Below are positions 1 to 32,748 of a stretch of 43,027 bases of DNA, one piece after another; within the stretch, counting starts at the first letter, position 1; the number at the start of each line of letters is the position of its first letter. The notes under the pieces are model-generated. The model was not told the origin of the DNA and searched no databases. It saw nothing but the letters and a program-made list of their open reading frames with translations. A program made the position numbers and the translations under genes. Location: IMG/VR virus record IMGVR_UViG_3300027608_000061, positions 1 to 43,027 of that record; one strand, written 5' to 3'. The stretch comes from a virus.

Positions 1-3000
1 GCTAGTTCCAGAAGTTCCAGATGTACCTCTAGTTCCAGATGTTCCTGTAGTTCCAGAAGTTCCAGATGTACCTCTAGTTCCAGATGTTCCTGTAGTTCCA
101 GATGTTCCTGTAGTTCCAGAAGTTCCAGATGAACCATTAGCTCCATTAACTCCACTCGTTCCAGAAGTTCCAGATGTTATTCCCGGAGCAGATGTTCCAC
201 TAGAACCAGAAGTACCAGAAGTTCCGGTTGTACCAGAAGTTCCAGATGTACCAGAAGTACCTGAAGTTCCTGAAGTGCCTGTCGTTCCTGAAGTTCCGGT
301 TGTACCAGAAGTTCCGGTTGTACCAGAAGAACCAGTTGTACCGCTTGTTCCAGAAGAACCTGAAGTTCCACTAGTACCTGATGTTATTCCCGGAGCAGAT
401 GTTCCACTAGAACCAGAAGTCCCTGATGTACCAGAAGTTCCTCTTGTTCCACTAGTTCCTGAAGTTCCTGTTGTTCCAGATGTACCAGAAGTACCAGATG
501 TTATTCCCGGAGCAGATGTTCCACTAGAACCAGAAGTCCCTGATGTACCAGAAGTTCCTCTTGTTCCACTAGTTCCTGAAGTTCCTGTTGTTCCAGATGT
601 ACCAGAAGTACCAGATGTTATTCCCGGAGCAGATGTTCCACTAGAACCAGAAGTACCAGATGAGCCAGAAGTTCCTGTTGTTCCTGAAGTTCCTGTTGTT
701 CCAGAAGTTCCACTTGTACCTCTTGTTCCACTTGTACCAGAAGTTCCTGAAGTTCCTGAAGTTCCTGAAGAACCATTCACTCCTGAAGTTCCTGATGAAC
801 CATTTACCCCTGAAGTACCAGAAGTTCCAGATGTACCTGTTGTCCCAGAAGTTCCTGTTGTACCTGAAGTTCCAGAAGAACCATTTACGCCTGAAGTTCC
901 TGAAGAACCATTTACCCCTGAAGTACCAGAAGTTCCAGATGTACCTGTTGTACCAGAAGTTCCGGTTGTACCAGAAGTACCTGAAGAACCATTTATTCCT
1001 GATGTTCCAGAAGAACCATTTATTCCTGATGTACCAGAAGTTCCAGTAGTTCCCGATGTACCAGAAGTACCTCTTGTTCCGCTAGTCCCTGATGTACCTG
1101 TTGTGCCACTTGTACCAGTTGTGCCACTTGTACCTGAAGTACCAGAAGAACCATTTACGCCTGAAGTTCCAGATGTACCGCTTGTACCAGTTGTACCTGA
1201 AGTTCCGGTTGTACCAGATGTTCCTGAAGAACCATTTACACCTGAAGTACCAGAACTACCATTTGCGCCCGAAGTTCCTGATGTTCCAGAAGTGCCGTTT
1301 ACACCAGAAGTACCAGATGAACCATTGACACCTGAAGTACCCGAAGTTCCTGTAGTTCCGCTAGTTCCAGTTGTGCCGCTTGTTCCTGAAGTACCTCTAG
1401 TTCCTGATGAACCAGAAGTGCCACTTGTTCCTGAAGTTCCGCTTACACCAGAAGTTCCTGAAGTTCCACTAGAACCATTAATTCCTGAAGTTCCTGAGCT
1501 ACCATTAGCACCTGATGTTCCTGAAGAGCCATTAATTCCTGATGTACCAGAAGTTCCGGTTGTACCAGATGTTCCCGAAGAACCATTAACCCCAGAAGTT
1601 CCTGAAGTACCAGTTGTTCCGCTCGTACCTGTTGTGCCACTTGAGCCTGAAGTTCCTGAAGTACCACTTGAACCATTAGCCCCACTAGTACCGCTACTTC
1701 CACTTGTTCCGCTTGTTCCTGTAGTACCACTTGTACCCGTAGTTCCTGACGTACCAGAAGTACCTCTTGTACCACTACTACCAGATGTACCTGAAGTACC
1801 TGTAGTTCCACTTGTTGCAGATGTACCAGATGTTCCTGTAGTACCACTTGTGCCTGATGTACCACTTGTACCACTAGTTCCTGCAATTGGTACAAAACTA
1901 CTTTTAAAATTCTCTATTGTAATAATATCTCCTGCTATTACGGGGTTGGTTAAAACAACCGTTGTCCCATTACTTGCAGTATAATCTGTTCCGCTATTTA
2001 AAAGCACACCATTTACAAATACTATAACCATTCCTACAACATAGCCATAAGAAACAGTAAATGTAGTTTGTCCTGCTGTTGCTGTAAATACGTCTGTTCC
2101 AAAAGCACTTGTTCCTGAAACACCGCTTGTTCCTGATGAACCAGAAGTTCCAGTTGTGCCAGAAGTTCCAGATGTACCACTAGTACCAGATGTACCTGTT
2201 GTTCCAGAAGTCCCAGAAGTCCCAGTAGTTCCAGAAGTTCCGGTAGTACCAGATGAACCAGAAGTTCCACTAGAACCATTTATTCCTGAAGTTCCACTAG
2301 TTCCTGACGTACCCGAAGTTCCAGTTGTACCACTAGTTCCAGTTGTACCACTAGTCCCGCTTGTGCCTGAAGTTCCACTAGTTCCAGAAGAACCAGATGT
2401 TCCCGTTGTACCAGAAGTTCCGGATGTTCCAGTAGTACCCGAAGTACCAGTTGTACCTGAAGTACCCGAAGTACCGGTAGTACCCGAAGTACCTGTAGTT
2501 CCAGAAGAACCTGTAGTTCCAGAAGAACCTGTAGTTCCACTTGTTCCGGAAGAACCTGTAGTTCCACTTGTGCCGCTTGTGCCATCTGTACCACTAGTCC
2601 CATCAATTCCAGAAGTTCCGCTTGTACCTGAAGTTCCAGAAGAACCTGAAGTACCACTAGTTCCAGAAGAGCCAGAAGTTCCACTAGTTCCGCTTGTACC
2701 ATCTGTTCCACTTGTACCATCTGTTCCAGAAGTTCCGCTTATGCCAGAAGTTCCACTTGTACCAGAAGTCCCCGAAGTTCCATCTGTACCTGAAGTCCCG
2801 CTTGTTCCTGCAGTCCCACTTGTTCCCGAAGTACCATCAGTACCCGAAGTACCATCAATACCAGAAGTACCGCTAGTTCCCGTTGTACCAGATGTGCCTG
2901 TGCTTCCTGAAGTCCCCGAAGTACCTGTTGTACCCGAAGTACCTGAACTACCATCCCCACCACTTGCCCCATCTAAGTTAACTGTCCAATTACTATAAGT

Positions 3001-3660
3001 TCCTAACCCTTCTGTTCTTGTTGGGAATGTAAAATCTAATTGCCCTGTTGCAGCATTATAAGTAATAACCTCACACTCTTGAAAGTTGTTTAAGTTATGT
3101 ACTATTATTATTGATTGGGCTGTTGAATATGCTAAATCTACATCTACTGTTAAAGTTCCAGAATTACCTAGAGTAAATGTTGTTGTAGAAGATGTTTTAT
3201 ATCTATCCGAGAAACCAGAAGAACCACTTGTTCCGCTAGTCCCTGTTGTTCCGCTAGTCCCTGTTGTACCACTAGTTCCTGTTGTACCAGAACTACCTGA
3301 TGTTCCACTTGTACCATCAGTTCCACTAGTACCAGAAGTCCCACTTGTACCACTAGAACCACTAGTACCGCTTGTACCTGAAGTTCCACTTGTTCCACTA
3401 GTCCCTGAAGTTCCGTTGCTTCCATTAGAACCAGAAGAACCACTAGTACCAGAAGAACCACTAGTTCCTGAAGTTCCTGTTGAACCAGTTGCACCAGAAG
3501 TTCCACTTGTACCATTAGAACCATTTGAACCACTTGTACCACTAGTACCAGAAGTCAAAGAAGCCCCAGCAGTTGAAGATACTATACCATCAGTGGCGAT
3601 TAAATAACCATTAAGGTTTCTAATTTTAATATCACCAGAAATTAAATTTTGTATTGCCAC
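1..3660 (-). CDS. Collagen-like (Gly-Thr-Ser) phage fibre protein, 3' end outside the window
   Basis: Reading leftward from a GTG at 3660, the frame is open to the window edge (at least 1220 residues, no stop). After about 35 non-repetitive residues (MAIQNLISGDIKIRNLNGYL...) the protein is mostly Gly-X-Y triplets, chiefly GTS, GSS, GTT and GSN, over 300 of them. Two non-repeat modules interrupt: residues about 150-235 (contains IIIVHNLNNFQECEVITYN and ends YSNWTVNLDG) and about 515-592 (FTATAGQTTFTVSYGY ... FVNGVLLNSGTDYTASNG). Such collagen-like stretches with small beta modules are known in phage tail and head fibres, where they form trimeric stalks; adhesion is inferred. GTG was chosen because an in-frame TAG lies 9 bases upstream and no ATG fits; it starts 11 bases after the previous stop. 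It is the last gene of the late series visible here. The plus-strand Pro-Glu-Val frames across it are its antisense shadow. Confidence 0.88.
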   Translation of the reverse strand, partial: MAIQNLISGDIKIRNLNGYLIATDGIVSSTAGASLTSGTSGTSGSNGSNGTSGTSGATGSTGTSGTSGSSGTSGSSGSNGSNGTSGTSGTSGTSGTSGTSGSSGTSGTSGTSGTDGTSGTSGSSGTTGTSGTTGTSGTTGTSGTSGSSGFSDRYKTSSTTTFTLGNSGTLTVDVDLAYSTAQSIIIVHNLNNFQECEVITYNAATGQLDFTFPTRTEGLGTYSNWTVNLDGASGGDGSSGTSGTTGTSGTSGSTGTSGTTGTSGTSGIDGTSGTDGTSGTSGTAGTSGTSGTDGTSGTSGTSGTSGISGTSGTDGTSGTDGTSGTSGTSGSSGTSGTSGSSGTSGTSGTSGIDGTSGTDGTSGTSGTTGSSGTSGTTGSSGTTGSSGTTGTSGTTGTSGTSGTTGTSGTTGTSGTSGTTGTSGSSGTSGTSGTSGTSGTTGTSGTTGTSGTSGTSGTSGINGSSGTSGSSGTTGTSGTTGTSGTSGTTGTSGTSGTSGTSGTTGTSGSSGTSGVSGTSAFGTDVFTATAGQTTFTVSYGYVVGMVIVFVNGVLLNSGTDYTASNGTTVVLTNPVIAGDIITIENFKSSFVPIAGTSGTSGTSGTSGTTGTSGTSATSGTTGTSGTSGSSGTRGTSGTSGTTGTSGTTGTSGTSGSSGTSGANGSSGTSGTSGSSGTTGTSGTTGTSGTSGVNGSSGTSGTTGTSGTSGINGSSGTSGANGSSGTSGINGSSGTSGTSGVSGTSGTSGTSGSSGTRGTSGTSGTTGTSGTTGTSGTSGVNGSSGTSGVNGTSGTSGTSGANGSSGTSGVNGSSGTSGTTGTSGTTGTSGTSGTSGVNGSSGTSGTSGTTGTSGTTGTSGTSGTRGTSGTSGTTGTSGTSGINGSSGTSGINGSSGTSGTTGTSGTTGTSGTSGTSGVNGSSGTSGVNGSSGTSGTTGTSGTTGTSGTSGTSGVNGSSGTSGVNGSSGTSGTSGTSGTSGTRGTSGTSGTTGTSGTTGTSGSSGTSGSSGTSAPGITSGTSGTSGTTGTSGTSGTRGTSGTSGTSGSSGTSAPGITSGTSGTSGTTGTSGTSGTRGTSGTSGTSGSSGTSAPGITSGTSGTSGSSGTSGTTGSSGTTGTSGTTGTSGTTGTSGTSGTSGTSGTSGTTGTSGTSGSSGTSAPGITSGTSGTSGVNGANGSSGTSGTTGTSGTTGTSGTRGTSGTSGTTGTSGTRGTSGTSGTS
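380..655 (-). repeat. 117-base tandem repeat inside the collagen-like gene
   Basis: The block beginning GATGTTATTCCCGGAGCAGA (plus strand) starts at 380, 497 and 614, an exact 117-base period. The first two units are nearly identical; the third is partial. A related copy of the start of the unit is at about 174-215. The unit encodes 39 residues (13 triplets). Each copy carries one interruption of the Gly-X-Y phase, reading GTSAPGITSG. This points to recent unequal recombination or slippage extending or shortening the fibre. Confidence 0.85.
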
Positions 3661-4931: not shown

Positions 4932-7900
4932 TTAGTTTGGAATTTTCTTTAAATTTTCAATTATCTTACCTCTTATACTATCATATTTTTGAGCTTTCAA
5001 TCTTTTCGTTATTTCATTTATTCTTTTTGCCTTTTCTTCTTTAGATACATTTTGTCTAAGTCCCGGAATACCAAGTTCAAATTGTTCCCATGCTCTATCA
5101 AGCGTTTCTCCTGAAGGACGTCTTTTAATAACTTCTCCCATAGGGTAGAATCCTTTACCTTCTTTAGTATCGAAAGATGTTGCAGCTGTTTTAACAAATC
5201 CGGGTTCTACCATATCTGCTATTTTTTTAGCCATAATATCACTTGCTTTATCTGTAAAATCAACATCTTTTTTCCTAGGATTTGCTATATCTGTTACTAA
5301 TTTACCAAGTTGAAAAGAAGCACCATATTGTAATAAATTTAAAAATGGATTATTAGCTGCTATTTCAGCATCAGCTTCAATATAAGATTTAATAAAAGAT
5401 TGGTCTTTTTCCTTTTTTTTATGTGCCGTTTCTGCTCCACTAATTATACTTTCATATTCAGGTATATGGACTAAAACTTTTGGAACACGCACCCCCATAA
5501 TTTCATATGAGCCGTCCTCATTTTTCTCAATTTCTTTGTAAGCATAATATCCTAAAGCATAAAACGCCATACCCATAGTTCCTAATTGTAATGATTTACC
5601 TAATAAATCAGCTTGAGATTCTGTTAAATTTTCAGTTCCCTTAAATATAAGTTGAGCGATGCCCGGGAATGATTCTCCTCCTAAGCCGGGTAATTTACCT
5701 TTGCCTTTAGTTTCAGTTTCTGATTTACCCAAGAAACTTCTTATTATGCCATATTTAGTAGCAAAAGCTCTTCCTACCCAGTTTACAGGGATTTTTACAA
5801 TTGGCAATTCTGATTGAGCTATTTTTCCAACTAACCCTGTATTTTGAGTAAATTGTCTAAATTTTTCAACGAATTTATTGTCATTCATTAAAATAGCCCA
5901 TTTGCCATGTAATAACGCTAATCTATTTATTTTTTCAATTACATCTTCATTAGTTACATCATAATTATCATATTCTTCTTGTAATGCTTTTTTCTGTTTT
6001 TTGGTTAAATTAGGCTCATCCAACTTTTCAGTTATTTCAGCCATTTTAGTTAAATTATATACCATTTGTTGTTCATGAGCATATACAAACTCAGGATTTT
6101 TAATAAAAGATTTAATGAATCCATGTGAACGTCCCGGTATTTCAAGAAAACTTCCTGATGCATTAAGCTCATCGTACATTATTGGTCTACCGTATAATAA
6201 TTCTTTAGTATCAACACCAGACATTATTTCTTTAAAATTAGTAGAAGAAAAGTTTCTAATCCATTCTGAATAATATTTAGCTATAGAACTCCATTTTGGG
6301 TCACCCCAAATAGATTGTTTTTCTCTAATGCTTTTTGGAGTTAAACCATAAACTAATTTACCAATTGCAAATTTTAAAGGTTTTAAAGCAATTAATTGAT
6401 GCGCAACAACTGCCGATAATTTAACCATTGTTATAGGATAAGATAATACAGCAGCTCTTTGCCATCTTAATAATTTATCTCCAATTCTTTCTACTATTGG
6501 CTCATTTCCCAACATATCTTGGCGTCTTCCTTCTTGCCATTTAAATTGTTGCTTTGCTACTTCTTTTTGTGCCAATTCATATTTTTCTACCCTTTCTCTT
6601 AAAGCACCTTTAGATTTATCTAGTGATTTTTTAATATTATTGTATTGAGCAGATAATAACATTGGTTCTAATTGTCCTGCTTTATTTACTCTAGTTAAAA
6701 TGTGGTTTATTACATCTTCTTTTGTAAAATCTGGCAATACATCTTTTATGTCCTCTAATACATTTTGTACTAATTCGTCAAATTTAACAATACCTTGGTA
6801 AACTTTTTCAGCTGCTATTTTAGATAATTCAACAGCAATTTTAGGGTCAAAACCAGCTGTTGCTTGACCACCTAATTTTTTTAAATTATCTAATGCCTTC
6901 GTAACTCTTTCATTAGATTTCTTAATTGTTTCACTAGTTTTTTCTGCTCTTTCTGCTTTCTTTATTTCATTTGATTTCTCCTGCAAATCTTTTAGTTTTT
7001 GATTTTCAATCATCAACTTAGCAGTTTCTTCTCTAGATTTTTCTAAATCTAATTTAGCTTCTTCTAATTTTGCTCTAGATTCTTTTATTTGATTATAAGC
7101 ATCTTTTACTTCTTGCTCTTGCTCTGGTGTTAATTCATTAATACCTTTTGATGCTTTATATTCATCCATCATATCAAGTATTGTAAGTTCTTTATTTACC
7201 CACAATTGTCTTAATCTAAAAATAGTACTTGCTGTACGACCAATTTGTTTATTAGCCATTGCATTGTCCATCATTTCATTTTGAACTTGTAATATTTCCT
7301 TTTGATATTCTTGTATTTTTTTAGGATTCTTAGTGTTAATTATCTCTTGCTGCAATTCATTTTCTCTTCCTTTTAATCTAGCTAAGTCATACATTAAAAT
7401 AGCTTGGTCAAATTCATTTCCTTGCTTAGTTGTTAATAATCTTTCTCTAGTTTCTTTAGCTAAATTTGGATTTAATTTAATTTTATCTTTAACTTTTTGA
7501 ATTACATTTTCTAAGTTAGTATCTTCCAATTTAGATGTAATTTGGTCTAAAGCATCTAATCCAAATTTATTACCAACAAATGCATCATTTACAACATTTG
7601 CCATTTTGATATAACTATCATCTGCTCCTTCAGGAATAAAAACTTCTGTAGGTTTTTTAGATATATCTTCAGATAATATTTTCTTTTTAGCCTTAAACTC
7701 GCTTTTACCTAAAATATCATCAAACATCTTTTTTAATTCAGGAGTCAATTCTTTCCCTGTCAAAGAATTATATACTGATTTAAAAGCTTCAGTTATTGTT
7801 TGTAATACTTTTTGGAATTCTGCACTAAATCCTTTTGCTCCTTGTGTATGATATTTTTCCCAAGATTCTGCTATAAACTCTTGTACATCTCTGTATTGCT

Positions 7901-15036: not shown

Positions 15037-15527
15037 AATTCTATTTTTTTAGTTTCTTCTAATACTTTTAAATATTCTTGTTTAATATCAGTCCCAGTTA
15101 AATAATTAACATGAGGTTCTAATATTTTTTCTTCTATTTCTTTTACAATATTTTCTTTTTCGTCATCATTTAAATAATTGTACTCTGATTTCATGTCATT
15201 TACTCTGTGAAATGTAGTCCAAATACAATCTTCTAATATGTATAAAACTCTTCTTGTGCCGGGTTTGGTTATTCCAGTATATGGAGCTGTTATTTCATCC
15301 CAATCATCTCCATCTATTGAAACTGCAACTTTACCATAAGATACTATATAAGGATGTTCTGTTTTGTGAACCTTGCTTGTTATTAAAGACCCAGCAGGCA
15401 TAAAAATCTCCCTTATATACATCCCATCAGTAAACATATGTGTAGTAAGACAATGAACTGGCTCACAATTTTCTAGCATAGCTACTTCTAGCTCATCTAA
15501 TCTATCATCGTTTTCCCTAATAATCAT
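15033..15527 (-). CDS. Cupin-like phage protein
   Basis: 164 residues. Residues about 25-110 read as a double-stranded beta-helix (cupin): MYIREIFMPAGSLITSKVHK, then a turn with GKVAVSIDGDDWDEI and ITKPGTRRVLYILEDCIWTT. Proteins of this type recur in phage structural clusters; the function is not known, but sugar or metal binding in the virion is possible. The Lys/Glu-rich C-terminus (from about 115) is helical. The start overlaps the stop of the upstream gene by 1 base and the stop overlaps the next start by 4, so it is tightly coupled with its neighbours. Confidence 0.75.
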   Translation of the reverse strand: MIIRENDDRLDELEVAMLENCEPVHCLTTHMFTDGMYIREIFMPAGSLITSKVHKTEHPYIVSYGKVAVSIDGDDWDEITAPYTGITKPGTRRVLYILEDCIWTTFHRVNDMKSEYNYLNDDEKENIVKEIEEKILEPHVNYLTGTDIKQEYLKVLEETKKIEL

Positions 15528-16081
15528 TATCGGTTGTTCAATGGTGAATTAATATATTTAGTCGTTGCGCTGTTCAAATATACGAAAGAATTGGCACTTG
15601 TTTTCTCAAATTTTATGACCATGTAACCACCCTTCAAGCTATCTCCTTCTACAAGCCCTCCGGGACTGTTAGAATCCCTTAAAAATGATGCTTGATACTC
15701 TGACTCTAAAGTAGTAAAATCAGACACTAAAAGCTCGCTTTCTTGCTTATTACCGCTTGTGCCTCCGGTGTCCATTTGTGTGTATATAATTGGACAAGCC
15801 CATGTGGTATTCCCCGTTTCCATAATGGAAATCCAAGTCTTTTTATCTATTGAAGCTGTGTTAAAAACAGTGGTTATTGAGGCGCCATATTGTGTACCAT
15901 AGAAATTACAAAAATCTGTGTCATTTGTGTGCCTCCAAATACCCCCATCTTTAAACGAGAATAGGGTAGTATTTAGCTCCCCCATCATCTCTGGATGATA
16001 TGAATAAAAAGACTCAAATGAGTTACCTACCTCGTCAAAGGCTATGGTATATGGGTCTTGATGAAAAATTAATATTGCCAT
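15527..16081 (-). CDS. C-terminal part of the tail stabilisation protein, encoded as a separate gene
   Basis: 184 residues. The start, DPYTIAFDEVGNSFESFYSY, followed by LFSFKDGGIWRHTN, NFYGTQYGASITTVFN and a C-terminal beta segment, looks like the C-terminal end of crAss-like tail stabilisation proteins, which normally follows directly after the 'YDAYTNKYIIA' type segment. Here that segment is residues about 1240-1255 of the upstream 1391-residue protein. The two pieces are separated by a Thr-rich linker and a Cys module. The gene begins 13 bases after the upstream stop, in a different frame, with its own ATG. The assignment rests on remembered family patterns. Confidence 0.7.
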   Translation of the reverse strand: MAILIFHQDPYTIAFDEVGNSFESFYSYHPEMMGELNTTLFSFKDGGIWRHTNDTDFCNFYGTQYGASITTVFNTASIDKKTWISIMETGNTTWACPIIYTQMDTGGTSGNKQESELLVSDFTTLESEYQASFLRDSNSPGGLVEGDSLKGGYMVIKFEKTSANSFVYLNSATTKYINSPLNNR

Positions 16082-16094
16082 TTTTTAATTGATT

Positions 16095-19000
16095 TTAACA
16101 TGCAGTACAACCCCCTCCTGTTCTATCCATAGTTATTGTACCTATTCCTCCGGGTTTATTATATCCAACATACCCTAATGATGGCTCAAATACAAAGTAG
16201 TTATCTGCTGATAAACTAGCAAATGAAGTTGCACTAATTGAAGTTGAGTCACAAATAGTTGTACCGCCTGAATAGGTAATTGTAGTTACACTACTTCCCC
16301 CACCCGAACATAAAGTTGCAAACGAAGTTGAAACCTTAAATCCCGGAGGTAAAGTTGTTGTGGTAGAAGTTGTAGAGGTTGTAGTACTTGTACTTGTAGT
16401 AGAGGTACTAGTAGAAGTCGTAGTGCTAGTAGTGGTTGTAGTTGGCGCAGCAGTTGTAGTAGTACTTGTAGTTGTAGTAGTAATATATCTATTAATTTCT
16501 TCCATAGCAATTATATACTTATTAGTATAAGCATCAAATACACCATAAATACATGGATTCCCCATATATACTCCTGTTTCAACTACCCCATTATTCAATT
16601 CTTGTCTATAAGCGCTTAATGTAGAAACAAAGAATGCATTCATATAATTAGTAATACTAATTGGAGTAATACCATCTTGGCTTAATCTACACACAACACC
16701 TCTGTAATTGTCTACAAAATAGTCAGCAAAGTTATTCCAAGCTAGACTTGTTGCTGCATCTCCAATGCCATAATCACCAGAATAATACTGTATTTTATTA
16801 ATTAAAACATCTGTATTAGCTTGTAATGGATTGTTAGCACTATCCTTAACTATTTGTGTTAAAATAGGCACATTACCTACTTTAAACTTTTGATAAACTT
16901 TTAAATATCTATCCCTAACATGCAATCTTATTACATCACCAAAGCTTCTATCGTATTCATCAAAGTTCTCATAATAGAATCTATTGGTACCATTAATATT
17001 AGTATTAAATTGATATGCTTGTCCAAATCTTATTAAAGTAGGAAAATATCTTTTAGTTGCATTTTCATCAATTACTGACGGTCTACCATTACTATTTGTA
17101 ATTAAATTATAGTTATCACTAAAACTAGATTCTATAATATCTATAGTATTGTTTTTTATTATTGAAAAATCTATAGGAAAATCTAAAATAGTAATTTTAT
17201 TATCACCAATTCCATCATTTGTAGATTGAGCTACTATCCAAACTTTTGAATTTGCTGGAATACTTATTTGAACATCCATTTCATATGTAACATCCACGCC
17301 TCCTACGCCTGACTGCGCGATATTGTTAATTTCAGTTGGTAATAAGTTTACCTTGTATTTAGGAGTAGCTGATGCATTACATATTATAGCATACAAAGAA
17401 AATATAGATGTGCCATCAGAAAATATTTTAACCGTACCTTTAAAGCTCGTTAAAACTGATGATGCTGATAAATTATAGAAAAAATAATCACCATCTGCAA
17501 ATTCAGGGAATGACCCAGCACCAAAATATGCAACTTGCTCAGTTTGATTTAGAATCTCATAAGCTGCATTAACAATTACAGGATTAACTGTTATATATAA
17601 TGTTTTAATTAAACTTGTTCCTGCGCCAATTGTTTCTATAAATATAGAATTAGATTGCTCTATATAATTATCACTATATGGAACAGTTCTTTTTCTATAA
17701 AATAAATCACCATTTGTTCCAGATATTGTAGCATAATAATTTGGACCAGCTACTGCTGTCTGAGTATGTTCAAGACCAATATGGTAAGCACTTGCGGTTC
17801 CGGGATTGCCTATCCCAAAACATTTGCCAAATTCATAAAATAATCTTTGATTAGCTGCAACATTAGATGTATAATTATATAATAATATTTGGTAATGTTG
17901 AAAATCTTCTGCGCCAGTAAAATTAAAAGACAAAGAATCCATTTCTCCAGAAACAAATCTTATTTTCAAAAAATTTCCTGTAGCTGTATATGTATTCGGA
18001 TTATTTGGTATATTATATTCAATACTAGCTTCAGTACCAACTATTTCGTAATCATATTGACTTGGTAAAATAAGAGCTGTATTTTGAACATCATATCTTT
18101 TCAAGAACTTAATTCTATCCCCTTCCGTATAATTATAAGAAACTACATTTGTAGTAGAACTAATCTGCTCGTTATATACTTGTATATTACTTATATCAAT
18201 ATAAGCAAATCTTGGTATTGTTGAACCTATTACATTTACACTAGAATATGCTGCTTTACTAATCCAAAATAATCTTTTATTATAAGTAGTATTGTTTGAC
18301 CTTAAAATTTGATAATATATTGCCTCTAACGGAGGTGTATTATAAATATTTAAAAATGTTTGACAAAATCTTATACCATCTATTGATGCAGGTGTATTAA
18401 ATGCAGCATTAGTTATATCTGTTTGTGCGCCTATTGTTCTTCCTTCAGCATCAAAATATTGAACTGCATATTGATAACCAGAATCAGCAGCATTCGCAAA
18501 TGTTGTATTATCTGGAGAACCTGCTGCTAAATAATATTTAACCCCACTTGAGTATAATATAAATCCTGCAGAATATGTAGCCGTTAAAACATTATCCAAT
18601 ATTGTAATTACCCATCCATTTGAAGTCAAAGCGGCTCCAATAGAAGTTAATAAAGTTGATACTAATAAAGGAGTTGAACTAGCATAAGTATAACTTATAC
18701 CAATATCCGAACCTGTACTACTTTGTGCATTTATAACATAAATGCCAGCTGGATTGTTTAATATATTAACTTTTCCCGTATTATTTGTTCCTGTACCAAA
18801 AACATAAACTTTCATTATTGTGCCAATACTTCCGCTATCCGTTCCGTTACAAGTAGCAAAAAATAATAAACCAGCATTATCTAAAAAGAAACCGCTAGAA
18901 TCACTAGTTGTAACTACATCCATAACCATATCAGTCTTATTATACCCTTCTGTAATACCAGAATATAATAACACATTTCCATTCGCCAATTCAGCGGCAT

Positions 19001-20270
19001 TTGCTTTTTGTGGAACCCAGTCTTGTAATTGCGTTGTTTCGTTTATATCTAATAAAGTATAGATGCTATCATTATAAAAATTAAATGTAAATATATCATT
19101 ATCTAATATGCCTAAAACTGTTTTATCTACTTGGGTAATTAAGTAAAAATCACTAGTAATACCATTTGTTGTTTCTCTAAATGCTAATTCTATTTTTTGA
19201 ACATTTACTCCTCCAGTAGAAACGGATATTGATATACGAGCATTATTTGAAAATACATTATCAGTAAATTGTAAAGTTGGTTGCTGCGGCAACGGAACAA
19301 TACTTCTTGAACTCCATACTGATTTCTCATTATTATCATAAACATATCTATATGTAAATTGAAATAATTTATTACGAAGGTTATTTACAGAAAATTCATT
19401 TGAACTTTGTACTGGTACAGGTAACGGACATGCAGTACATCCAACACTTAAAACTTCTGCGTCAGGTGTAACGCCTGCTGTTGTTTTAATTTGTATTGTA
19501 TTTCCACTATAAGATAAATAATATACTGTATCCCTAGTTAGTGTTACAAATGTAGAAGAACTAACGGTGTCACCTCCCGCAGCTGCACACATTACTCCGC
19601 CACTCCATGTTGGAGTATTAACAATACCACCGCCTGTTCTATTACAAGCTCCTGTTATTGTACTTGAATAATAATATGTTGGGGCTATTGTTGTTGTTGT
19701 AGTAGTTGATGCAATTACCGCATCTTCATAAACAACCTTTGCTGGCATTACTGGAGGAGCTTTTATTACCAAAAGATATTCCGCTTTCCATGAAGTGCCA
19801 TAATTAGCTAAAATATTTATATTCCTAGGTGGGTTTAACCCATCATTAAAAAATAATATATCCCCTTCTACATCTCTATAATATATATTAACAGATAAAA
19901 CTTTATAAGAAGGATTAAAATTTAAAATATCAATTCCATCGCTATCTGTTTTACTTTCTAAAACTTTTATAATGGCTTCTGTGCTAGCATTGTAATATAA
20001 AATACTATTATAACCATTACTATTCCAAAGAAAATAATAAGCTCTATCTCTTACTTTGTCCGGATAAAAGCCAATGACTTTATTTTCACCCGCAGGCAGT
20101 GTATATGCTATTTCGGTATTCCCTAGAATATTAGCAACAACCAAATCATTGCCAATCCCTTGTGAATCTTTAGTTATATTTAATGCATCTATATAATCTC
20201 CATTAGAAATTCTATATTGAGCAACATCAAGATTTAACTTACCATTAAACGGGTTATTTATAATTGGCAT
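16095..20270 (-). CDS. Tail stabilisation protein (crAss-like type), main part
   Basis: 1391 residues. The N-terminus (MPIINNPFNGKLNLDVAQYR ... GDYIDALNITKDSQG) matches the crAss-like stabilisation protein, a large beta-rich tail hub component. Residues about 188-197 are a Thr run (STTTTTTIAP) followed by a Cys-containing module (C at TGAC, GVMC, GCTAC) to about 285. The C-terminus repeats this plan: Thr/Ser linker at about 1261-1304 and a second Cys module to the end (TLC, TTIC, GCTAC). In between is a long Asn/Tyr/Thr-rich beta structure. Residues normally expected after about 1255 are in the next gene. It starts 7 bases after the ring gene stop. A structural role in a short tail is inferred from family resemblance. 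Confidence 0.75.
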   Translation of the reverse strand: MPIINNPFNGKLNLDVAQYRISNGDYIDALNITKDSQGIGNDLVVANILGNTEIAYTLPAGENKVIGFYPDKVRDRAYYFLWNSNGYNSILYYNASTEAIIKVLESKTDSDGIDILNFNPSYKVLSVNIYYRDVEGDILFFNDGLNPPRNINILANYGTSWKAEYLLVIKAPPVMPAKVVYEDAVIASTTTTTTIAPTYYYSSTITGACNRTGGGIVNTPTWSGGVMCAAAGGDTVSSSTFVTLTRDTVYYLSYSGNTIQIKTTAGVTPDAEVLSVGCTACPLPVPVQSSNEFSVNNLRNKLFQFTYRYVYDNNEKSVWSSRSIVPLPQQPTLQFTDNVFSNNARISISVSTGGVNVQKIELAFRETTNGITSDFYLITQVDKTVLGILDNDIFTFNFYNDSIYTLLDINETTQLQDWVPQKANAAELANGNVLLYSGITEGYNKTDMVMDVVTTSDSSGFFLDNAGLLFFATCNGTDSGSIGTIMKVYVFGTGTNNTGKVNILNNPAGIYVINAQSSTGSDIGISYTYASSTPLLVSTLLTSIGAALTSNGWVITILDNVLTATYSAGFILYSSGVKYYLAAGSPDNTTFANAADSGYQYAVQYFDAEGRTIGAQTDITNAAFNTPASIDGIRFCQTFLNIYNTPPLEAIYYQILRSNNTTYNKRLFWISKAAYSSVNVIGSTIPRFAYIDISNIQVYNEQISSTTNVVSYNYTEGDRIKFLKRYDVQNTALILPSQYDYEIVGTEASIEYNIPNNPNTYTATGNFLKIRFVSGEMDSLSFNFTGAEDFQHYQILLYNYTSNVAANQRLFYEFGKCFGIGNPGTASAYHIGLEHTQTAVAGPNYYATISGTNGDLFYRKRTVPYSDNYIEQSNSIFIETIGAGTSLIKTLYITVNPVIVNAAYEILNQTEQVAYFGAGSFPEFADGDYFFYNLSASSVLTSFKGTVKIFSDGTSIFSLYAIICNASATPKYKVNLLPTEINNIAQSGVGGVDVTYEMDVQISIPANSKVWIVAQSTNDGIGDNKITILDFPIDFSIIKNNTIDIIESSFSDNYNLITNSNGRPSVIDENATKRYFPTLIRFGQAYQFNTNINGTNRFYYENFDEYDRSFGDVIRLHVRDRYLKVYQKFKVGNVPILTQIVKDSANNPLQANTDVLINKIQYYSGDYGIGDAATSLAWNNFADYFVDNYRGVVCRLSQDGITPISITNYMNAFFVSTLSAYRQELNNGVVETGVYMGNPCIYGVFDAYTNKYIIAMEEINRYITTTTTSTTTTAAPTTTTTSTTTSTSTSTTSTSTTTSTTSTTTTLPPGFKVSTSFATLCSGGGSSVTTITYSGGTTICDSTSISATSFASLSADNYFVFEPSLGYVGYNKPGGIGTITMDRTGGGCTAC
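16359..16488 (-). repeat. Thr/Ser-rich low-complexity coding repeat in the stabilisation gene
   Basis: On the minus strand this stretch is a run of ACT/ACA/AGT triplets encoding about 43 Thr and Ser with one AAP. It is similar in content to the repeats at 26378-26496 and the short runs at 26785-26810 and about 19680-19715. Triplet runs of this kind are prone to length change and, as protein, form flexible stalks. Confidence 0.8.
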
Positions 20271-21049: not shown

Positions 21050-21322
21050 TTAATTATTTGAAACGTAAGCTAATATATCATTATGGCGAATCAAGAAATG
21101 CAATTCATCGTTTAATAAAATGGCTTCTCCTGCCCCTTTAATATGAAAAATAACATCATCTTTTTTTGCTTCCATTTTTATTTTAGCTGTACCTCTCCCA
21201 GTTGATATTACTTGAGCTTTGCAGCTTCTCTCTCTGTAATTTTCGGGTATAAATAACCCTCCCTCTGTAACACCTTCTGCCATAAATGGCTTAACTAAAA
21301 TAAAATCTCTAATTGGTTTCAT
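21050..21322 (-). CDS. groES: GroES-like co-chaperonin (Cpn10)
   Basis: 90 residues, slightly shorter than host GroES (about 97). The N-terminus MKPIRDFILVKPF and the following EGGLFIPENYRERSCKAQVI, with STGRG, match the Cpn10 beta-barrel and its mobile loop (the GGLFIP part contacts GroEL); the C-terminal LIRHNDILAYV is the typical final strand. Phage co-chaperonins such as T4 gp31 replace host GroES and enlarge the folding cage for the capsid protein. Here the gene sits between connector ring genes, 5 bases after one and 2 before the next, so a client among capsid or connector proteins is likely. That is inference. Confidence 0.8.
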   Translation of the reverse strand: MKPIRDFILVKPFMAEGVTEGGLFIPENYRERSCKAQVISTGRGTAKIKMEAKKDDVIFHIKGAGEAILLNDELHFLIRHNDILAYVSNN

Positions 21323-26372: not shown

Positions 26373-26765
26373 TTACGCTGCTGTTGTTGTCGTAGTTGTT
26401 GGAGCTGCTGTTGTTGTAGTTGTTGGAGCTGCCGTTGTTGTAGTTGTTGGAGCTGCTGTTGTTGTAGTTGTTGGAGCTGCTGTTGTTGTAGTAGTTCCAG
26501 AACCAATTGCTATTGTTCCACTCGCACTTATAGTAATAGGATACACTACAGCAGTATTTGTCAATAATTGCACACCATACCAACTTGTTCCATCTCCATA
26601 AATAGGTTGTGTTAATCTACTATCAGCAAATAATACATTAGCGGATGTTAATGTACTCGTTGTTGTATAAACAATTTGCGTTCCTTGATTAACGCCTATA
26701 AGATTTGCCTGAAAGGCGTTTGGGTATGTATTTTTAGATAATACATATGCTATTGAATTTGCCAT
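26373..26765 (-). CDS. Small virion protein with a (TTTTTAAP)n tail
   Basis: 130 residues. Residues 1-90 form a beta-rich domain (YVLSKNTYPNAFQANLIGVN, ADSRLTQPIYGDGTSWYGVQ) and the last 40 are repeats of TTTTTAAP ending in TTTTTTAA. The repeats come from a 24-base tandem repeat. It lies between a second small gene with the same kind of tail and the scaffold gene. A surface (decoration or fibre-anchor) protein whose Thr-rich tail extends outward, perhaps glycosylated, is inferred. No close family is recognised. Confidence 0.7.
   Translation of the reverse strand: MANSIAYVLSKNTYPNAFQANLIGVNQGTQIVYTTTSTLTSANVLFADSRLTQPIYGDGTSWYGVQLLTNTAVVYPITISASGTIAIGSGTTTTTAAPTTTTTAAPTTTTTAAPTTTTTAAPTTTTTTAA
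26378..26496 (-). repeat. 24-base tandem repeat encoding TTTTTAAP
   Basis: The plus strand shows GGAGCT at 26401, 26425, 26449 and 26473, an exact 24-base period, within GTTGTTGTAGTTGTTGGAGC-type units. The copies are nearly identical (one T/C difference), so copy number is likely to vary between phages. Confidence 0.9.
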
Positions 26766-26784: not shown

Positions 26785-27165
26785 TTAAGGTGCTGCTGTT
26801 GTCGTTGTCGTTGTATTACCTTGTAATAACAAATATTTACCAATAATACCAAATTCAACAATACCAGCTGCTGCAATAGATGCAATATCTGTTTTGGTTG
26901 TTAAATTAACTCCCAAAACTGAAACCCAGTTAATTGGTACTTCTGGCGCAGGTGATAATTGCCCTGTAATAGAACCATCATCGTTGGTAGTACTGAAACT
27001 AACTGTTCCAGATGTACCCACAAATTGTACTACCGCAGAATCCCATCCAGATAAATCTTGGTAAAAATTATTATTAGCATTAAAAGAATCTGTTGCATCT
27101 ACAACTGTGCTAATTTTTGAACTAAATTTTTGTAGTCTTATTAAAAGTTTACTTACCGTTGCCAT
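26785..27165 (-). CDS. Small virion protein with short TTTTTTAAP end
   Basis: 126 residues. A beta-rich body (FYQDLSGWDSAVVQFVGTSG, SFSTTNDDGSITGQLSPAPE) ends in NTTTTTTAAP, a single copy of the repeat seen multiplied in the next gene. It follows the portal gene by 22 bases and precedes the next gene by 19. Similar length and build suggest that the two adjacent genes are paralogues or at least share a tail by exchange. A capsid decoration or connector role is inferred from position. Confidence 0.7.
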   Translation of the reverse strand: MATVSKLLIRLQKFSSKISTVVDATDSFNANNNFYQDLSGWDSAVVQFVGTSGTVSFSTTNDDGSITGQLSPAPEVPINWVSVLGVNLTTKTDIASIAAAGIVEFGIIGKYLLLQGNTTTTTTAAP

Positions 27166-31693: not shown

Positions 31694-32077
31694 TTATATT
31701 CTTTTACCAGCTAATTCACCAACGGCATCAGCCATATTTTCTGGTGAAAATGGTTTCTTATTAACTTGAACAACCTCTTTTTTATCAGTTACTTCTTGAT
31801 TTATTCCGGCTAATACTTCTAATGCCTTTATTGAAGCAGAAATCGTTCCTGCATCTACCCATATTTTCTGCAATCTTTCAAAAGTCTTAATCTTAGGGTC
31901 ATCAATATCAATAGCTGTAAGACTAGTTTTATTCAACAACTCAGCCATTTCGTTGGCTTTTCTATTTAAAGCATGGTATAGTTTTCCAATACCATCTTGT
32001 TCATAATAGGCGTTTTTACCTTGTAAATAAGCAACTTGTTTTTCTAAATCCTTTATTTTATCTAATTCTACAGACAT
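31694..32077 (-). CDS. Candidate small terminase subunit
   Basis: 127 residues. A helical N-terminus (LDKIKDLEKQVAYLQGKNAY) with coiled-coil character leads to KLYHALNRKANEMAELLNKT and a second helical part, then a charged tail. It lies immediately before terL and overlaps the upstream gene by 10 bases. Position, size and helix content fit a small terminase subunit, which recognises the packaging site, but no helix-turn-helix is clear, so other roles are possible. Confidence 0.5.
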   Translation of the reverse strand: MSVELDKIKDLEKQVAYLQGKNAYYEQDGIGKLYHALNRKANEMAELLNKTSLTAIDIDDPKIKTFERLQKIWVDAGTISASIKALEVLAGINQEVTDKKEVVQVNKKPFSPENMADAVGELAGKRI

Positions 32078-32748
32078 TCTACTTCTTTTAATTGTTTTGC
32101 ATCTGATTTGTTATAACCAACCCATAAATCACCATTCTCAACTAATTCTGTCATATTATCATTGATAGCTATAATCTCATTTCTATCATTACCATCTGGA
32201 TAATATCTTAGTCTAATAATTCTACCCTCAGTTCCATCATCATTTTGATATATGATTTCATAATCACTTGATATTACCGTATTAACGGCTCTACCTTTCA
32301 ATTCACCACTAGTTATATATAATTTATTATTCATTATTTCAGGTTCAATACCCTCAAGCATACCTTTATATGGCTTGAATATTCTTAGAGCTGTAACAAA
32401 ATTATTTAAAGCGTTCCATATGGAACCTTTCCCTTCTCTCCACATAAAACATTCTTCAATAGGTATTGAGAAATATTGAATATCTGAAGAAGCTTCTGCA
32501 GTAGGTCTTTGATAATTAAAAATCTTATAAGTATCATGAGTAGCATTATGATGAATAAGAATTTCAGCCCCCGTAGGTATATCTTTACCATCAACAACTT
32601 CCGCATTAACTGGTTTAACATAACGCATATTAAAATTATCATATACTCTTTCTAATTTAATCTTTGTACCATCTTTAAACGTATGGCTATTTTTACTTTC
32701 AAGGTCAACTTTAATGATTACTCTATTGCTTGGAGCTTTCAATTTCAT
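32068..32748 (-). CDS. Late-operon first gene with GroES-like N-terminal region
   Basis: 226 residues. Residues 1-80 (KAPSNRVIIKVDLESKN ... AEVVDGKDIPTGAEILIHHN) follow the pattern of a Cpn10 barrel (R-V-I-I-K, a Gly-rich loop, then G-x-E-I-L-I-H-H), but the similarity is weak and loops differ. The rest (YFSIPIEECFMWREGKGSIW, LYITSGELKGRAVNTVISSD) is beta-rich with no motif I recognise. It is the first gene behind the strong promoter at 32767-32796 and overlaps the candidate terS by 10 bases. It may be a co-chaperonin-like or structural protein. Confidence 0.6.
   Translation of the reverse strand: MKLKAPSNRVIIKVDLESKNSHTFKDGTKIKLERVYDNFNMRYVKPVNAEVVDGKDIPTGAEILIHHNATHDTYKIFNYQRPTAEASSDIQYFSIPIEECFMWREGKGSIWNALNNFVTALRIFKPYKGMLEGIEPEIMNNKLYITSGELKGRAVNTVISSDYEIIYQNDDGTEGRIIRLRYYPDGNDRNEIIAINDNMTELVENGDLWVGYNKSDAKQLKEVECL

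Follow-up and report, generated by a model that had tools for sequence, protein, structure and literature searches.

A crAss-like phage muzzle protein encoded by two genes, with a variable array of stalked modules at the break

The muzzle locus of the window

The window analysed in this study is a stretch of viral DNA of 43,027 nucleotides (IMG/VR record IMGVR_UViG_3300027608_000061). Two consecutive genes on its minus strand are assigned by sequence comparison to the muzzle ("stabilisation") protein of crAss-like phages. The first is an open reading frame of 1391 residues (16095-20270). Its residues 1-1262 (16485..20270) make up the front chain of the muzzle, as judged from phrog_14478, profile comparison and unsplit relatives, and extend as far as the conserved MEEINRY where the break lies; the last residue of the conserved segment FDAYTNKYIIAMEEINRY is residue 1262, at base 16485. 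Next comes a stalk rich in Thr and Ser, about 46 residues long (16347..16484), whose length varies among relatives. The C-terminus of this frame is a four-cysteine display-type module of 83 residues (16098..16346), shared with two related contigs, L005 and L034. The stop codon TAA (16095-16097) and the 13-base A-rich leader of the second gene (together 16082..16097) separate the module from the back chain of 184 residues (15527..16081). The ATG of the back chain lies at 16081, 13 bases past the TAA and in a frame different from that of the 1391-residue protein. The initial annotation, made from the letters alone, had recognized the Cys module, the stop, the 13 bases and the new start in another frame, and all of these were found in the sequence. 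It had also placed a Thr/Ser stalk between the two chains, which is present but somewhat longer than the 43 residues given.

Both chains matched when profile searches against stabilisation proteins were run, as had been proposed, and the 184-residue protein fell into no independent family. The 1391-residue protein matched phrog_14478 (E 3.7e-53). The 184-residue protein matched phrog_18548 (4e-17) and phrog_38031 (1e-13), the Pfam family crAss_MUZ_C (PF25729; E 1.6e-4, 22.5 bits with a curated cut-off of 27) and, also below the curated cut-off, the last 41 positions of crAss_MUZ (PF25731; positions 1183-1223 of 1224, E 5e-4). Because the 184-residue protein matches crAss_MUZ_C, the end of crAss_MUZ and two PHROGs, the split pair is not a product of chance. 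The idea that an unrelated gene merely happens to lie downstream of the muzzle is refuted by the unsplit muzzles, with whose C-terminus the 184-residue protein aligns end to end. The proposal that this gene is the C-terminal end of a crAss-like stabilisation protein was confirmed by these Pfam, PHROG and profile comparisons and by its fusion to the rest of the protein in unsplit relatives. The genes compared for the crAss-like assignment were the muzzle and the neighbouring structural genes.

Direct searches of the PDB with single sequences gave no match, but a profile built from related muzzles reached the crAss001 muzzle gp44 (7qok_A, E 1.9e-25), which argues for homology of the C-terminal part to the Crassvirus muzzle (stabilisation) protein. 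In the profile alignment, the break maps to gp44 residues ~1192 to ~1198, where two strands are connected by a tight turn. gp44 is one chain with the turn at this site, whereas the window protein is broken there. By the gp44 domain limits given in PMC10172136, the break is located past the IG2/crass region and within the propeller. The C-terminal part of the unsplit muzzle of contig L014, modelled with AlphaFold2 (mean pLDDT 76, higher near the break site), contains the corresponding hairpin, with strands at 258-261 (EINRY) and 268-272 (LKYHQ) and a short loop of lower confidence between them. The best PDB match of this model was again 7qok_A (E 8.4e-16), followed by tail proteins of other phages, among them Pa223, SU10 and P22, and the model supports the propeller-containing nozzle-type fold of the muzzle family. 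By profile and predicted fold, gp44 (PDB 7qok; PMC10172136) and the window protein belong to one muzzle family.

Split and unsplit muzzles among relatives

The related contigs and phages compared here (L-numbers) are mostly metagenome contigs of uncultured phages, and some are near-identical; no relatives turned up when bacterial and archaeal genomes were scanned. The muzzle is encoded by two reading frames in the window and in 41 IMG/VR contigs of its clade, in which an insert lies between MEEINRY and QDPYTI. Since 41 related contigs have the same gene pair, the split cannot be put down to faulty sequencing or assembly of the window contig. A single reading frame with a short loop and no module is present in 20 other IMG/VR contigs (L014, L030, L033, L077-L080, L084-L088 and L091-L098). 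The initial annotation had suggested a search for an unsplit version; besides these 20 contigs, it was found in three of the four named phages (phi38:1, elemoE and cr118_1), the fourth, phi46:3, being split. These relatives without the module (L014, L030, L033 and 17 more) have one gene at this point, not the two that had been named as evidence against the proposed insertion. In the closest relatives with an unsplit gene (L014, L030 and L033), inserts did not exceed about 30 nt. A split without an insert was not seen among the relatives, a pattern behind which there are few independent events.

In a tree of 53 rows, the split clade forms one well-supported group (99) with the unsplit relatives outside it, and the unsplit L014 is nested inside the split clade (96). 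The position of L014 indicates that its gene was fused again or replaced. The tree makes the unsplit gene ancestral and implies a single fission at the root of the split clade, reversed once by re-fusion in L014. The split Cellulophaga phage phi46:3 clusters with the unsplit phi38:1 and elemoE on long branches, with its exact placement unsure; its position among unsplit phages points to a separate split. The same hairpin is also broken in L101 and L102, which are absent from the tree. Their front chain carries an Ig-like domain, and their back chain is extended at its N-terminus by a further domain of about 125 residues. Big_9 was detected in the front-chain extension of phi46:3 (E 2.8e-20) and in the front chain of L101 (E 1e-5). 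The breaks in phi46:3 and in L101/L102 are apparently independent of that in the window clade. With about three independent origins, one of them from the distant L101/L102 pair, the link between insert and split comes mainly from one clade. The insertion may have caused the break, or it may have filled an existing one. A further candidate, Maribacter phage Panino (L037), is annotated with two genes and looked split; a frameshift upstream (5560-5800) accounts for this, and its hairpin is intact.

Purifying selection acts on the separate C-terminal gene (dN/dS of the back chain 0.12-0.23, window versus relatives). A stop and a next start as close as the 13 bases in the window would allow a frameshift or readthrough to join the frames into one uninterrupted muzzle chain. 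This is extremely unlikely, however, because each of the three possible frame relations between core and back chain is represented in a set of 28 split loci (16, 9 and 3), because in most split relatives a conserved A-rich leader stands directly 5' of the ATG that belongs to the back chain, and because one or two whole genes lie between the front and back chains in several of them.

Stalked modules at the break and elsewhere

The insert ranges from 0 to 2.9 kb (0.2 to 2.9 kb in the 41 split contigs). Across all inserts, we counted 114 modules in about 34 families, arranged as arrays of zero to eight beads, each a Thr stalk with a module. The insert of L022 is a stalk with no module, and the unsplit L014 has no insert. 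The initial description of a conserved protein split with an added module holds; the arrangement is, however, not peculiar to the window phage but clade-wide, and the module is one of the roughly 34 interchangeable families. Many relatives also have small separate genes between the muzzle halves, of about 70-150 residues and of the MNVTLTLNSGxGxDLGPNF type (for example L007 7150-7722, L011 7325-7992 and L010 6306-7976), some with stalks and modules. In L011, L016, L017, L031 and L099, tandem C-x-NGG-(S/T)A motifs stand directly past the conserved end, with few or no Thr stalks.

The inserts differ even between close relatives. Among 27 close pairs, defined by flanks averaging at least 88% DNA identity (~88-95%), a median of 6% of the insert could be aligned at flank-level identity, compared with 100% of both flanks. 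L004 and L006, for example, have flanks 93% and 96% identical, yet only 2% of their inserts can be aligned to that standard. The opposite case is L007 and L009, whose flanks are just 75% and 85% identical but which have in common a module without differences over about 240 nt; the pairs L004/L034 and L006/L034 show a similar trend. These comparisons show rapid turnover of the arrays and horizontal exchange between phages, as in Ig-like accessory domains. The simplest reading is that single modules are exchanged, perhaps through the repetitive DNA of the stalks, a route of recombination suggested by the sequences. The module-sized exchange of DNA would also be expected if the array were a mobile or selfish element (intron, intein or homing gene) parasitising the muzzle gene. 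We regard this as very unlikely, since no Rfam intron or other RNA family was found within the window, no nuclease or intein match was found among the modules tested, the inserts read as Cys or Ig-like folded domains on stalks, and related modules occur on a second likely virion protein as well.

The C-terminal module of the window is predicted with high confidence by AlphaFold2 (pLDDT 93, pTM 0.81). It occurs in L005 and, as a diverged copy, in L034, and its four cysteines are invariant across ten related modules. It had no match in Pfam, in the PDB at E below 1, in named phages or to any known binding domain. Among predicted viral structures it gave one weak match (A0A6J7WGP7; E 0.085, probability 0.99, TM 0.71). 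No Ig fold was recognized in the window module; the Ig-like Big_9 was found only in phi46:3 and L101. A second Thr stalk and Cys module lie inside the front chain (residues 184-285; 19416..19721, minus strand), by position in the IG1 region, and among the close relatives examined are present only in the window and L005. The four-Cys frame of this in-chain module matches that of the C-terminal module, and the two are distantly related. An iterated search from the C-terminal module alone did not reach the in-chain module, and profile pairs between the two gave modest support (P from 0.025 to 3e-5). The muzzle core of L003 has another insertion of a stalk and module at residues 388-504, and the cores of L004 and L006 are of similar length.

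Stalks are also found on a pair of likely virion proteins encoded on the minus strand of the window, one of 126 residues with domain A and a Thr stalk (26785..27165), the other of 130 residues with domain B and a Thr stalk encoded by 24-bp DNA repeats (26373..26765). Domains A and B form one protein of 209-216 residues in 12 related contigs and two proteins in 47 rows including the window; fusion or fission may have occurred, in either direction. In seven of the 47 split rows a stalk and a module extend the domain-B protein, and in three of these rows the modules give matches to the Cys profile (E 1e-8 to 2e-6). Seven of the 47 split pairs are without a stalk, and the tree has a single change between the fused and the split state. 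No annotated relatives of the A and B proteins were found, and a role in the head is a guess from gene order. Elsewhere in the window, a large collagen-like open reading frame with GTSG-type repeats (1-3660) runs off the end, and GroES-type matches occur at 21050-21322 and 32068-32748 (phrog_3188, E 4e-14; phrog_13932, E 2e-5), one of the two genes sitting within the structural gene block.

The split could be a neutral fission, in which a chance stop and a new start at a tolerant hairpin became fixed and unneeded arrays gathered later. Such a history would fit a single origin for the whole window clade, the stalk without a module in L022 and the ability of L014 to manage without an insert. However, every break seen has added sequence, including the separate ones in phi46:3 and L101, both Ig-like, and the C-terminal module is held by purifying selection (dN/dS 0.13, window versus L005) and has a confidently predicted fold, so that we consider neutral fission rather unlikely.

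A possible display site at the tail tip

Our preferred interpretation, which we consider probable, is that the two chains together close the muzzle propeller and that the freed C-terminus serves as a docking site for swappable display arrays. By analogy with crAss001, the muzzle would be a hexamer closing the tail tip, whose chain became split in the course of evolution where a beta-hairpin of the C-terminal propeller part turns. The front chain (1-1262) ends at this hairpin with the Thr-rich stalk and the folded four-cysteine module. The back chain has its own start codon and opens with the hairpin's second strand; non-covalent pairing with the front chain would allow it to complete the propeller. 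Selection on the back chain and its conserved start site suggest that both chains work together. The freed C-terminus would extend from the tail tip and act there in display, its stalk probably pointing outward from the virion and, if the hexamer holds, present in six copies. With a start codon of its own, the essential C-terminal part would be unharmed if the array were lengthened, truncated, frameshifted or swapped, which would leave the array free to change. The likely use of the array would be to bind ligands of the host-surface or mucus type, or to vary such binding, and we infer that the modules bind ligands on the host surface.

It is also conceivable, and we suggest it tentatively, that these phages generally make docking sites for exchangeable display arrays out of essential virion proteins by splitting the chain. 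This suggestion is based on the approximately three fissions at the muzzle hairpin and on the stalk-bearing A/B likely virion protein, which occurs both fused and split. A common pool of stalked Cys modules may pass from phage to phage and between tail and head.

Ig-like accessory domains (Fraser and others) are dispensable, horizontally exchanged surface additions to phage structural proteins, the known cases being attached at ends, in loops or through programmed frameshift. One such domain sits at the same muzzle break in phi46:3 and L101. The present case differs in that the site of addition divides an essential protein into two chains, and in that the modules of the window clade are small domains, many with cysteines, on Thr stalks. 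The muzzle pair of the Pachyviridae (phi46:3 gp111/gp112 and phi13:2 gp120/gp121), whose genes are annotated as structural proteins, is likewise encoded by two genes, with the same hairpin broken and the front chain extended. Its extension of about 500 residues contains Big_9 and no Thr stalks, unlike that of the window clade. Diversity-generating retroelements (DGRs) of crAss-like phages also produce hypervariable surface proteins in the same broad phage group, by means of a reverse transcriptase and point changes at adenines (PMC12386605, PMC10136315), whereas in the window clade whole modules are swapped. Insertions are described as a source of length variation in muzzle proteins; the relevant passages on gp44 locate them in the IG2 and crass domains and do not mention a split propeller that bears a terminal array (PMC10172136). 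No description of a split muzzle was found in the open-licence literature searched. Muzzle insertions and Ig-like virion additions are already known; a repeated cut of one hairpin in an essential tail-tip protein, carrying a hypervariable array, was not found described in that literature.

The C-terminal piece of the muzzle is filed under unknown function in PHROGs, which calls for caution in annotation. The break gives a natural split site within a very large virion protein. If our interpretation is true, the arrays are hypervariable tail-tip domains of environmental crAss-like phages that form a defined class and are predicted to act in host binding. With the essential end supplied from its own start, the broken end would be free to carry any array, and the case would show how the surface of a conserved gating machine can change quickly.
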